DNA from: a virus
DNA length: 56,790 nucleotides
Direction: 5' to 3' (one strand)
IMG/VR virus record: IMGVR_UViG_3300047157_000001
Location: 1-56,790 of that record
Shown: positions 1 to 56,790 of the stretch, one piece after another
How positions within the stretch are numbered: position 1 is the stretch's first letter
How the letters are laid out: the number at the start of each line of letters is the position of its first letter
Notes under the pieces: generated by a model
The model's database searches: none
What the model saw: the letters and a program-made list of their open reading frames with translations, nothing else
What the model was told of the DNA's origin: nothing
Translations under genes and position numbers: made by a program

Positions 1-193
1 TATACGTACTGGGTAACGGGGGGTGGCCCTCGCAGGGTGGGCATTTTGAAAGCCTTTTTGCTATATTTGCAAGGTGTTTAGCTACTAAGTAACTGTTTTT
101 ACTGCATAAACTAACTGATATATCGTCAATATACTACAAAAAAGTGTTGTAATTCTGCAACATCTCAAGAAGTGTGTCCTTTTTGCAACAGGG
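1..193. repeat. Left copy of 193-bp terminal direct repeat
   Basis: These 193 bases are identical to the last 193 bases of the window. This is either a true direct terminal repeat, as in many T7-like podoviruses, or the overlap left when a circular or permuted genome is assembled. The repeat contains a short G/C-rich hairpin (CCCT-cgc-AGGG) and the 8-mer TTGCAACA, and no convincing gene. Confidence 0.95.
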
Positions 194-243
194 ATGCATA
201 AATACCACACCCACCTAGTGTTGCACAAATGTCACACCCCTCT

Positions 244-317
244 CGCGCACACACGCATACACGCGCACGTACACACACGCGCACACCTGGGCGCATACGC
301 CTGGGCGCACACACGCG
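244..317. other. Alternating purine-pyrimidine tract, potential Z-DNA
   Basis: Bases 244-286 alternate pyrimidine and purine without a break (43 bp of CG, CA and TA steps, rich in CG and CA). Two more alternating stretches follow at 291-300 and 305-317. Such tracts are known to adopt left-handed Z-DNA under negative supercoiling. The composition is very different from the AT-rich surroundings. Confidence 0.75.
286..309. repeat. Direct repeat of CCTGGGCGCA, 14-bp period
   Basis: The 10-mer CCTGGGCGCA occurs at 286-295 and again at 300-309, embedded in the alternating tract. It interrupts the Z-DNA-type alternation twice in the same way, so it may be a short unit duplicated in place or a paired protein-binding site. 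Confidence 0.6.
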
Positions 318-356
318 AGCGCGTTCAGATATCCAAAACAAAAAAACTTTTTAGTA

Positions 357-377
357 GAACGAATCAGGAACGAATCA
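357..377. repeat. Tandem repeat GAACGAATCA x2
   Basis: GAACGAATCA at 357-366 and 368-377, period 11 bp, about one helical turn. Paired sites one turn apart are common for DNA-binding proteins; the function is unknown. Confidence 0.5.
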
Positions 378-761
378 CCCACAACAGAACAAAACAGGAA
401 ACACTAAAAAAGGTTTCGTTTAAAAACAATAACTTACAAGTTTATCAAATTTTATGCTTGCAATGCATGTTGCGGTATGCCCTTAATAGAACATCGAAAA
501 CGACAAGAAACAAAACGCAAGCGATGTAATCCTTCAAAATGTTTCAACGTCTTTTTGACGGCTCGGTGAAATGCCCTAGTAAATATTAACTAACTACTTT
601 GACTACTAATAAACATACGAAAGACTAAACGTTATTTGACAATGGCACTAAGCCCCTTGAATGTTTTACGACATGATGCATTCGACAATACTTTAAAACA
701 TGTCCTTGCTAGGTTACGATAGCTGACAACTATTTAGGACTAAGCTTGCACCGATACTCGA

Positions 762-792
762 CTGAAAGTATATATGCGATAATTGCTTTCAG
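762..792. promoter_or_regulatory. Inverted repeat CTGAAAG-N17-CTTTCAG
   Basis: Perfect 7-bp arms at 762-768 and 786-792 with an AT-rich 17-nt centre. The layout resembles an operator for a dimeric regulator, with half-site centres 24 bp apart, upstream of the early block. No regulator gene can be tied to it. Confidence 0.4.
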
Positions 793-896
793 GTGGCTTC
801 AGCTAATGGCTAGGGGTTTTTACGTTGGAAGGGGTGGCGCTTGGCAAATGAGACCTAACGAAAGTGAAGGTGCAAAAAGCGATAACAAATATTTAC

Positions 897-946
897 TTGA
901 CAGGTAGGCGACTAATGTTGCCTACTCTCTGGTAGATATATTATAG
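897..946 (+). promoter_or_regulatory. Candidate early promoter/operator
   Basis: TTGACA lies at 897-902, followed by a perfect 6-bp inverted repeat GTAGGC (904-909) / GCCTAC (920-925). No good -10 box lies 16-18 bp after this TTGACA. An alternative is TTGCCT (918-923) with TTATAG (941-946), 17-bp spacing. The palindrome would then overlap the promoter like an operator. It is the only plausible signal directly before the early block starting at 960. Confidence 0.4.
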
Positions 947-959
947 AAAGTGAGGTACT

Positions 960-1697
960 ATGACATATAAATTATTAGGTGTTGGAACCAACGCCAAAAC
1001 AATCAAGGGTGATGGTAGCGAATATCTAACCGCTATCTTATATATGACACCTTATAAAGTGATGGTGGATGGTAAGTCATTCAACTCATGCTCTATGGCT
1101 GAACAAGCAAGCTGTATTGATGCGTGTCTATATACAGCAGGACGTGGCAAGTTTAGCAATGTTCAATCAGCTAGACAACGCAAGGCTCAATGGTTTTACA
1201 AGGATAGACAAGCATTCATGGAACAACTGATTGACGACATAGATAGGTTTCAAATCTATTGCATGAAGCGTGGCATTCAACCTTGTGTGAGACTGAACGG
1301 CACTACCGACATACGTTGGGAGTTAATCAAGATTGACGGTAAAAACATATTCGAGATATTCCCTAATGTGCAATTCTATGACTACACTAAGATTGCTAAT
1401 CGTAAGTGTAAGGACATACCCAACTATCACTTGACATGGAGTTACTCCAACGCAAATGCAGACTATGCCAAGCTACTCGACAAAGCATTAGAGCAAGGTA
1501 TGAATGCGGCAGTCGTGTTTAGATCTAACTTCATCCAAGTCAAACCTAAAGCTTGGCATACTTGGAAGGGATACCCTGTAATTGATGGTGATCAAGACGA
1601 TCTAAGATTTCTTGACCCAAGGGGTGGACACATTGTTGCACTCTATGCTAAGGGTGATGCGAAGAGAGACACAAGCGGATTTGTTCAGGAGGTATAA
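960..1697 (+). CDS. GP88/DUF7227-like phage protein
   Basis: First gene of the early block, 245 residues, with a Shine-Dalgarno GAGG six bases before ATG. The sequence has the layout I recognise from the GP88/DUF7227 family of phage proteins: N-terminal LLGVGTNAKTIKG, a cysteine-rich stretch ending CLYTAGRG (about residues 42-62), a central VRLNGTTDIRWE, and a C-terminal VIDGDQDDLRFLDPRGG with KRDTSGF near the end. The molecular function is unknown; the conserved cysteines could bind a metal, which is inference. Its position suggests early expression. Confidence 0.7.
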   Translation: MTYKLLGVGTNAKTIKGDGSEYLTAILYMTPYKVMVDGKSFNSCSMAEQASCIDACLYTAGRGKFSNVQSARQRKAQWFYKDRQAFMEQLIDDIDRFQIYCMKRGIQPCVRLNGTTDIRWELIKIDGKNIFEIFPNVQFYDYTKIANRKCKDIPNYHLTWSYSNANADYAKLLDKALEQGMNAAVVFRSNFIQVKPKAWHTWKGYPVIDGDQDDLRFLDPRGGHIVALYAKGDAKRDTSGFVQEV

Positions 1698-51899: not shown

Positions 51900-52199
51900 C
51901 TATGACTTTTTTGCTTTCTTTTTCTTAGGAGCTACGCCACCTTCCCAAGCTTCATTCTCTGGAGTAGAAGGATCGTCTGCCATTAGATGTCCTTTCTCAT
52001 TCCTAGCTCTTTTGGGTGGTACGTTTTCTATAGTAGCTTCATCTAATATGTTTAATAAGTTAGGATCAGTACAGTAAACATTACCAAAGCGATCTTCTGA
52101 TGCTGCTTGGTTACCCATAGCATCACGCACATTACTTTCCATGTCTAGTGTATATCCATGTTTTTCTAAAACATCTTTATACTTTTCGTAATACTTCAT
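51900..52199 (-). CDS. Small hypothetical protein, 99 aa
   Basis: KYYEKYKDVLEKHGYTLDMESNVRDAMGNQAASEDRFGNVYCTDP at the start, ending in a lysine tail (APKKKKAKKS). It shares a lysine-rich end with neighbouring late genes. No domain recognised. Confidence 0.55.
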   Translation of the reverse strand: MKYYEKYKDVLEKHGYTLDMESNVRDAMGNQAASEDRFGNVYCTDPNLLNILDEATIENVPPKRARNEKGHLMADDPSTPENEAWEGGVAPKKKKAKKS

Positions 52200-52405
52200 T
52201 ACTTACCCTTTTTCATTGGACGTTCAGCAGGGTTAGATGCTCCACACATCATTGCACCTTTAGCATAGCCCATCTTCTTAGCCATACCACCATTCATCAT
52301 GCCCATCTTTTTCTTAGCCATGCCACCATACATGTAGCCCATCTTCTTAGCTACGGCTGGTGCTTCTTTCTTTAGTGCTTTCATACCTTCATTCATCTTC
52401 TTCAT
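52199..52405 (-). CDS. Met/Gly/Lys-repeat protein, 68 aa
   Basis: From ATG 52405, which overlaps the previous stop. Starts KKMNEGMKALKKEAPAVAKKMGY then repeats GGMAKKKMG-type units (about three copies); Met, Gly and Lys make up most of the protein. Small repeats of this type occur in marine phages without known function. The Met-rich, basic repeats may bind membrane, nucleic acid or copper; all inference. Confidence 0.55.
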   Translation of the reverse strand: MKKMNEGMKALKKEAPAVAKKMGYMYGGMAKKKMGMMNGGMAKKMGYAKGAMMCGASNPAERPMKKGK

Positions 52406-52662
52406 GTTCGCTTCCTTCCTGATGCGGTTACAGACCATTTAACTTTCTTTGGTCCTGTCTTCTTTGCTGCTTCTGCTTTACTAATTCTACCTGCTACCTT
52501 TGCTGGTCTACAAGCTGGGTATGGTCTACTCTTGTCCTTAACACTTTTTCTTCCACACTCCTTGCCTGTCTTTACGTCACGCCAGTCTTCCTTGAACCAT
52601 TGAGTTAGTCCACCTTCACCAAAGGATCTACGACTTTGTAGTACGTGTCTTGACTTGTGCAA
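52402..52662 (-). CDS. Small basic DUF5872-like protein
   Basis: 86 residues from TTG 52662, chosen because AAAGGAGG is just upstream; a GTG at 52692 has no such signal. Contains SFGEGGLTQWFKEDWRDVKTGKECGR and KSRPYPACRPAKVAG, with two cysteines, resembling a domain known from large dsDNA viruses and phages. Very basic, so DNA contact is plausible. Confidence 0.55.
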   Translation of the reverse strand: MHKSRHVLQSRRSFGEGGLTQWFKEDWRDVKTGKECGRKSVKDKSRPYPACRPAKVAGRISKAEAAKKTGPKKVKWSVTASGRKRT

Positions 52663-52810
52663 CTGATCCTCCTTTACTGTAAGTACCCCCACGCTTTTTG
52701 TAGGTCTTAACTAACCAAGCACTTCCATATGCGCTGGGCCACTTAAACTTCTTCTTAGCTTCTGTCTTTACTCTAGAATACAAAGCTGCGTTCTTAGGTT
52801 TGTTCGCCAT
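52628..52810 (-). CDS. Small basic protein, 60 aa
   Basis: ANKPKNAALYSRVKTEAKKKFKWPSAYGSAWLVKTYKKRGG: a helix-rich, strongly basic sequence similar in type to small phage proteins found with the previous family. Overlaps the next gene by 35 bases. Possibly a DNA-binding component. Confidence 0.6.
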   Translation of the reverse strand: MANKPKNAALYSRVKTEAKKKFKWPSAYGSAWLVKTYKKRGGTYSKGGSVAQVKTRTTKS

Positions 52811-55964: not shown

Positions 55965-56225
55965 TTAGCCTACCCCAGGTCTTTTTCTACCCGGGTCTAA
56001 CACTTCATGTCGCTTTAAGTGGCCCTCTAAGTACATAGCTCTTTCTACGTGGTCTAAAGTAAAGCTTTTTCCTAGTCTAACTTTCAATGCTTCACGCACA
56101 TAGAACACATCTGACTTAGGAATGTGTACTCTCCGTAGTCTTTTACTGTCACCGTCTGCTATAGCATCGTAGAACTCTTCTATTACGTCTTCAGAAGAGT
56201 ACATACTGACTTTATTCTTATACAT
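55965..56225 (-). CDS. First late gene, small helical protein, 86 aa
   Basis: From ATG 56225 with AGG upstream; a longer reading to 56327 has no such signal. Contains DVIEEFYDAIADGDSKRLRRVHIPKSDVFYVREALKVRLGKSFTLDHVERAMYLEGH, probably a helical protein with a winged-helix feel, and a basic end. As the first gene after the late promoters it could be regulatory. Unknown function. Confidence 0.55.
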   Translation of the reverse strand: MYKNKVSMYSSEDVIEEFYDAIADGDSKRLRRVHIPKSDVFYVREALKVRLGKSFTLDHVERAMYLEGHLKRHEVLDPGRKRPGVG

Positions 56226-56363
56226 ATTGTTACCTAAAAGGCGGTATGTACCATAAACTACGTGTTGAGGAGGAGGATGTGAGGAAGAAAGACACCCAGC
56301 ATATGATACATACCTAGTATAACACAAGTTATTGGTTATAATTATGAATGTGTTACTAGATTT

Positions 56364-56392
56364 AGTATACAGGAGGTTAGTATAACTGTCAA
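56364..56392 (-). promoter_or_regulatory. Late promoter P1 TTGACA-N17-TATACT
   Basis: Minus strand: TTGACA 56392-56387, a 17-bp spacer and TATACT 56369-56364. TATACTA also appears inside the spacer (56384-56378) and at 56321-56315 in the leader, giving three copies. Near-consensus, so host RNA polymerase should use it. Confidence 0.75.
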
Positions 56393-56483
56393 GTTAAACT
56401 TTCCTATGTCCAACATCTTTTATATAGTTAAACTATTTATATATATTTACTATTTATTATGTTAAAACATCAAATGTTAAACT
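56393..56483. repeat. GTTAAA repeats with 34-bp spacing
   Basis: GTTAAACT at 56393, GTTAAACT at 56427 and GTTAAAAC at 56461 are spaced exactly 34 bp, and GTTAAACT again at 56476. The intervening DNA is strongly AT-rich. The pattern resembles iterons or repeated operator sites next to the late promoters. Confidence 0.55.
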
Positions 56484-56530: not shown

Positions 56531-56597
56531 GAGGGTTTTTGTATACCTGCGACAGTTTGTCACCCTTTAAAAAAGCACTTCTGTGTGTTTGTGTATA

Positions 56598-56790
56598 TAT
56601 ACGTACTGGGTAACGGGGGGTGGCCCTCGCAGGGTGGGCATTTTGAAAGCCTTTTTGCTATATTTGCAAGGTGTTTAGCTACTAAGTAACTGTTTTTACT
56701 GCATAAACTAACTGATATATCGTCAATATACTACAAAAAAGTGTTGTAATTCTGCAACATCTCAAGAAGTGTGTCCTTTTTGCAACAGGG
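56598..56790. repeat. Right copy of 193-bp terminal direct repeat
   Basis: Exact copy of bases 1-193. With it removed the unit genome is 56,597 bp. Its presence indicates that the window is a complete phage genome rather than a piece of a chromosome. Whether it is a physical terminus cannot be decided from the sequence alone. Confidence 0.95.

Follow-up and report, generated by a model that had tools for sequence, protein, structure and literature searches.

Passages of PMC3024258, which cites Rahmouni and Wells (1989) and Jaworski (1987), place Z-DNA-forming sequences near transcription starts and describe Z-DNA at susceptible bacterial sites under local supercoiling. The phase-variable nadA promoter of Neisseria meningitidis has a variable repeat tract with operators close by, a known repressor and a shown effect on expression, according to part of PMC2791445. 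Temperate phages controlled by host LexA, e.g., GIL01, carry boxes of the host LexA form in their control regions (excerpts of PMC4551915 and PMC9437464). The Caulobacter LexA box has the form GAAC-N7-GAAC (GTTC-N7-GTTC) in portions of PMC12700426 and PMC9578287, and in the roseobacter Dinoroseobacter shibae the predicted LexA sites were sorted into GTTC and GAAC consensus motifs (a section of PMC6473078). For the phage group considered here, a search of titles and abstract openings, with most subscription journals outside its range, found no paper on Z-DNA, repeats or LexA boxes, and the words LexA, SOS, Z-DNA and operator are absent from the main text of PMC9038755 and PMC6918029.

The tract studied here lies in the window (the whole stretch of DNA analysed, 56,790 nt) and is a degenerate, length-variable, GC-rich pyrimidine-purine (YR) repeat within the mosaic control region of a CRP-207/HMO-2011-type phage. 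Like the sequences in the passages of PMC3024258, it is GC-rich, alternating and non-coding, lies by divergent units and has similar energetics; unlike them, it is natural phage DNA, its Z-form is predicted and it is absent from most of the relatives examined. It resembles nadA, as partly described in PMC2791445, in its variable length and the operator-like sites close to it, and differs in the repressor and the expression effect just named. The window has a box of the LexA operator form (GTTC-N7-GTTC or its complement, spacing exactly 7) at 357-371, as phages of the GIL01 type do in the excerpts cited; unlike there, LexA binding is a prediction from the sequence and the Z-prone tract is an extra component. 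In the control region of the isolated phage CRP-207 (MZ892987.1), a homologous tract occupies the same place, right after a ACCACACCCC-type motif and before CGAATCA repeats; there, unlike in the window, the tract is longer (runs of 16, 18, 42 and 12 nt) and no exact GAAC-N7-GAAC box is present.

DNA and protein matches place the window near the Roseobacter phages CRP-207, CRP-2 and CRP-603 and the Puniceispirillum phage HMO-2011 (the host of CRP-207 is a Rhodobacteraceae strain, that of HMO-2011 Puniceispirillum), and its PHROG matches include an integrase, a replicative helicase, a DNA polymerase, a ribonucleotide reductase, a terminase, a portal and a major head protein. The ends overlap by 193 bp, giving a circular genome of 56,597 bp. 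Two contigs, L094 (3,021 bp at 100%) and L085 (11,818 bp at 99.975%), align unbroken through the junction; the window can therefore be read as circular, and the joined-ends reasoning of the initial annotation is sound. As that annotation had placed it, the tract is flanked on the circle by leftward late-side genes, starting from about 56,230, and rightward early-side genes, starting from 960, within a divergent region of about 1.3 kb across the junction that is without a convincing gene and probably governs the switch between early and late genes. An assembly artefact is ruled out by the related tract in the isolate CRP-207 together with contigs L085 and L094. Searches for tRNAs and Rfam families found nothing, and no relatives were found in bacterial genomes via the integrase or the control-region pattern.

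Table 1 Features of the divergent control region and its flanking genes, in window coordinates
Feature	Position	Strand	Basis or remark
88-codon stretch of the first late-side gene	55968..56231	-	Anchor of sample 2
Sigma-70-like promoter TTGACA-17-TATACT, facing the late-side genes	56364..56392	-	11/12 consensus positions; 4 sites in the stretch against 3.1 expected from shuffles
Element A, landmark CTGTGTGTTTGTGTATATATACGTA	56581..56605	+	Start lies 260 bp ahead of the tract, counted over the junction; variant forms common to many relatives
Operator-like block: palindrome TGTTGTaattcTGCAACA (145-162), TTGCAACA (183-190), TGTTGCA (219-225)	145..225	.	Sequence; putative function
Perfect YR alternation of 43 nt; steps 8 CG, 11 CA, 2 TA	244..286	.	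Run scan
CCTGGGCGCA, two copies 14 bp apart (286, 300); 10-nt YR run 291-300	286..309	.	Sequence
13-nt YR run 305-317 and short inverted repeat ACGCG-AG-CGCGT (313-324)	305..324	.	Sequence
GAAC-N7-GAAC box GAACGAATCAGGAAC, form of the Caulobacter LexA operator	357..371	.	Sequence; downstream of the tract
First early-side gene, 245 aa, PHROG 1617, function unknown	960..1697	+	Anchor of sample 1

The initial annotation had described 43 bp of perfect alternation with two further runs, a repeated sequence and AT-rich non-coding surroundings, a description that agrees with what we found. The runs are exact at 244-286, 291-300 and 305-317, with a further short one of 6 nt at 319-324, and CCTGGGCGCA recurs at 286 and 300. 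GC content is 0.69 in 244-317 vs 0.41 in 1-243 and 0.37 in 318-950. The next longest YR run anywhere in the 56,790-nt window is 17 nt, and a 40-nt YR pattern matches the window only within 244-286 and none of 100 dinucleotide-preserving shuffles of it. Of the features that mark a phase-variable repeat, a length difference between close relatives is present and a near-perfect short unit is absent, the repeats reported by TRF being degenerate (66% matches at period 8, 75% at period 14). Period 14 is one of the two strongest in the five alleles examined, a weak periodicity taken without a shuffle control. The nadA repeat is a tetranucleotide.

A 111-aa ORF (194-529) spans the tract and is probably not a gene. 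A coding explanation was set aside because the frame is short in several relatives, where the same ATG opens 8 codons in CRP-207 and L092, 17 in L087, 23 in L096 and 7 in L089. The long frame is kept in L005 (115 aa), L006 is without the start pattern, and in L201, where the available stretch stops 38 codons into the frame, its length is uninformative. A single-strand hairpin was also set aside as unconvincing, with z-scores of -1.80 for DNA (8 of 200 shuffles as stable) and -1.42 for RNA (13 of 200).

Z-DNA prediction, proposed as a check in the initial annotation, was carried out with a single-segment B-Z model, using the Z-Hunt dinucleotide energies and 5 kcal/mol per junction, on 25 hand-picked regions. 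The same junction energy is given in a passage of PMC3024258. By this energy model the tract has the highest B-to-Z propensity of the genome: segment 244-286 is predicted to convert at a superhelical density (sigma) of about -0.042, the least negative value in the genome when melting of the AT-rich segment 56419-56480 is left out of this simple model, and 305-324 is the second-best site of the window, at about -0.046. The critical sigma is also -0.042 in CRP-207 and L029, -0.043 to -0.051 in the eight further carriers among the regions modelled, and between -0.053 and -0.060 in the 14 modelled regions without a tract or with an element-A-like run alone; the model references are -0.032 for (CG)16 and -0.047 for (CA)30. 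Two features of a Z-DNA-forming regulatory sequence are present, a long GC-rich alternation (43 nt) and, in this simple model, a predicted B-Z transition at moderate negative superhelicity. On the model values, the tract should flip to Z-DNA first among the sites of the genome. The predicted sigma of -0.042 calls for stronger negative supercoiling than the usual unconstrained level of about -0.025, which we counted against a torsion-absorbing role.

Relatives were drawn from IMG/VR. Sample 1 consists of the best 80 loci anchored on the first early-side gene, of which 6 with less than 700 bp before the anchor were dropped and to which 13 regions were added (87 regions, 66 clusters); sample 2 consists of the best 80 loci anchored on the first late-side gene, with 21 dropped (less than 650 bp) and 4 added (63 regions, 50 clusters). 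A pooled set was selected from 124 candidates (samples 1 and 2 and part of L103-L116) for element A, 450 bp after element A and non-redundancy, leaving 47 regions; L201 did not pass on length. With contigs in common, samples 1 and 2 are not independent, and sample 2 is part of the pool.

In sample 1, the upstream regions (89,517 bp) hold 11 YR runs of at least 18 nt vs 0 in the 264,754 bp from the anchor gene on. Such runs occur in 10 of the 66 clusters (mean 0.49 and maximum 3 in 100 shuffles), including L019, whose run sits in an apparent element A. The initial annotation had named relatives lacking the tract as evidence against its proposal, and most of the relatives examined do lack it: 40 of the 47 pooled regions have no run of at least 18 nt after element A, and in sample 2 alone, among clusters whose first 700 bp contain element A, a run at +200 to +450 is present in 4 of 31 and missing in 27. 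With 7 of 47 pooled regions carrying it, the tract does not have the distribution of a conserved element, i.e., one present in most relatives. Since most relatives examined, some of them close, are without it, the tract is not a required switch and, in the group as sampled, is not supported as a general device. L024 is 97.4-98.5% identical to the window on both sides, yet has no tract; 534 bp of other sequence (no blastn match) replaces window 197-955. Other DNA occupies the place in L004, and the operator-like start is shared by L087, L093 and L096, in which the tract is absent. Against window 197-955, whole control-region blocks are thus missing or replaced in the otherwise similar L024, L004 and L087, which suggests cassette exchange.

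Among the carriers, the family of the window and CRP-207 includes L005 (27 + 17 nt), L092 (16 + 18 + 28 + 12 nt) and L201 (40 nt). Tracts of different sequence have runs of 18 nt in L021, 22 nt in L028 and L030, 41 nt in L029, 21 nt in L031 and 22 nt in L032 and L010, and CA-rich or TG-rich tracts of different sequence occupy the same slot in a few other lineages. Contigs sharing GCGCACACACACGCGCG gave 17 stretches, of which L092 is a member of the group and L117-L132 were checked for run length alone. Another 13 contigs match the junction pattern: L085, L091, L094 and L095 were already in the set, L216 (the contig of L201) and L217 appear by eye to be group members, and L213-L215 and L218-L221 were set aside for their different sequence.

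Element A provides a reference point for the position of the tracts. Within 900 bp after it, the pooled regions contain 8 YR runs of at least 18 nt, in 7 of 47 regions, and all start at +260 to +322; the slot is constant and its occupancy low. L029, L031 and L032 have a tract and no recognised element A, so that their slot is not comparable. Long runs also occur off the slot, one of 29 nt lying 1,795 bp before the anchor gene in L067 and TA-rich ones measuring 22 nt in L184 and 18 nt in L179, and 25-nt runs span element A in L147 and L151. Element A is itself a TA-rich, mostly alternating 25-mer, followed shortly in relatives by GTGGCCC or a similar sequence, and is perhaps a promoter.

Comparison of the tracts indicates which of their properties persist. 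Long alternation is present in the window and in CRP-207 alike, even though their aligned upstream flanks match in only 153 of 258 ungapped columns. The ratio of transitions to transversions in two close pairs is 9:3 in the tract vs 33:49 in the flanks (Fisher p = 0.03), and between the window and CRP-207 it is 19:7 vs 102:158 (p = 0.001), a comparison in which the alignment favours in-phase matching; the transition excess may stem from mutation bias or alignment. TA steps make up 16 of 157 YR steps in 11 tracts, which are not independent (the window, L005, CRP-207 and L201 are one family and L028 and L030 a close pair), vs 38% expected from the local composition of the window under alternation alone; three element-A runs have 5/8, 5/8 and 4/7 TA steps. 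C exceeds G in the window, L005, CRP-207, L201, L010, L021, L031 and L032, and G exceeds C on the same strand in L028, L030 and L029. The alleles of the window, L005, CRP-207, L092 and L201 form one family, and we judge the independent gains to be perhaps 3 to 6. The kept alternation, the scarcity of TA and the differences in polarity together suggest that the recurring feature is GC-rich alternation itself, not a particular sequence or strand. Z-propensity would require GC-rich alternation, but expansion of GC-rich dinucleotides would also give much of it.

Several candidate regulatory sites surround the tract. Upstream, inverted TGTTGCA/TGCAACA sequences lie at 145-225; at this place, several copies of TGTGATCACA-type palindromes replace the TGTTGCA-type sites in CRP-603, L008, L010, L021 and L065, which is consistent with lineage-specific repressor operators whose specificity has been swapped between lineages. 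Downstream, the GAAC-N7-GAAC form occurs on either strand in 31 of 50 clusters of sample 2 (53 matches) and 20 of 66 clusters of sample 1 (37 matches), while each of the other spacings (N4-N6 and N8-N12) gives 0-5 matches; the clusters are related by descent and the events are not independent. Spacer position 3 is A in all 29 distinct GAAC-oriented boxes. These LexA-like boxes beside the slot are more widespread among relatives than the tract, and we infer that host LexA binds them. CRP-3, of the same phage group, is reported in part of PMC6918029 to integrate at a host tRNA-Met gene, which makes SOS-linked control plausible. For rightward transcription only weak promoter matches (9/12) were found, one in 1-1000 (shuffle mean 2.0) and one at 56419, and no intrinsic terminator was found in 1-1000.

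We tentatively read the tract, with a probability of about 0.38, as an optional, length-variable, torsion-absorbing spacer between the operator-like sites (145-225) and the LexA-like boxes (357). Late (leftward) and early (rightward) promoters firing apart would cause negative supercoils to accumulate between them, and the tract would flip to Z-DNA, taking up some seven to eight turns (the model values being 0.18 turn per bp over 38 bp, with the junctions added) and limiting promoter coupling and unwanted melting. Changes in tract length would also shift the spacing between operators and boxes. Because close relatives do without it, the tract would be an optional modifier, at most an optional tuning part. 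Counted for this reading are (i) the highest Z propensity of the genome, (ii) the tract in CRP-207, (iii) the excess of runs in sample 1, (iv) the excess of transitions and (v) the statement in section 3.6 of PMC4060949 that YR patterns are most strongly under-represented in groups including alphaproteobacteria; counted against it are the tract-less relatives, the off-slot runs and the membership of the alleles in one family. Neutral repeat drift is almost as likely. On that account, slippage and short tandem duplication produced a GC-rich CA/CG repeat in an unconstrained spacer of a recombination-prone control region. The alternation would then merely result from expanding dinucleotides and later transitions, with no Z-DNA role. 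Its absence from most relatives examined fits this account, as do the replaced or missing adjoining DNA in L004, L024 and L087 and the repeat-like length changes between close relatives (16+2 bp between the window and L005, 14 bp between CRP-207 and L092, with the weak 14-bp period). The growth by slippage proposed in the initial annotation accords with these length changes, as does recombination. The interpretation given there is supported in part, for Z-proneness, placement and change in length, and its supercoiling sensor or boundary is a hypothetical role. Drift explains less well why tracts that differ in sequence and in CA/TG polarity recur at +260 to +322 in several lineages, and why the window and CRP-207 share long alternation despite their diverged flanks; recurrence at one slot, polarity differences and scarce TA steps slightly favour the torsion-absorbing spacer. 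We consider doubtful the broader proposal that Z-forming tracts have been gained, lost and swapped again and again among related marine phages in a single fixed slot, some 260-320 bp past the conserved landmark and adjoining boxes of the host LexA type. In that proposal the tracts would serve as an adjustable torsional buffer, either keeping lytic-early and late transcription apart or setting an SOS-responsive switch.

It is unlikely that the tract matters through its length alone, with the distance or phasing of operator, LexA-like box and promoter being decisive, as in phase-variable promoters, and sequence and Z-form irrelevant. The first GAAC box does lie at varying distances from element A (373 bp in the window, 355 in L005, 344-345 in L028 and L030, and 260-294 in some tract-less relatives, such as L165, L147, L163 and L142), and NadR operators flanking a variable repeat tract offer a precedent (part of PMC2791445). 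However, ordinary DNA gives comparable spacing in relatives without a tract (L006 355, L151 355, L160 356), and Z-prone sequence is thus not needed for spacing. A protein-binding array or replication-origin element, in which the repeats would be sites for a phage initiator or nucleoid protein, appears more improbable still: the minimum of the cumulative GC skew falls at the joined ends and direct repeats were found near the tract, but the skew follows gene direction and is confounded, the repeats are degenerate at the TRF match levels given above, and the sequence differs between lineages. Hardly credible, finally, is a Rho-utilisation (rut) leader, i.e., a C-rich, G-poor RNA from 200-290 (C 42%, G 15%) that would recruit Rho and attenuate rightward transcription, as G outnumbers C on that strand in the tracts of L028, L030 and L029.

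If the torsion-absorbing spacer does flip in infected cells, it would provide a natural test of a regulatory role of Z-DNA in bacteria and phages, for which nature already supplies homologous control regions with a long, a short and no tract, one being that of a cultured phage. A neutral tract would be no more than an ordinary spacer repeat. This marine phage group is abundant, and the LexA-type boxes found in many of the relatives would tie its life-cycle decision to DNA damage in the host.

A motif like ACATCGAAAGCGACAAG (window 491-507) recurs, by eye, about 400-530 bp after element A in several relatives, and a conserved RNA or promoter may lie in the leader that extends to 960. Elsewhere in the window, a 36-bp repeat is present in two copies at 52275-52345, between the listed ORFs 51900-52199 and 52402-52692.
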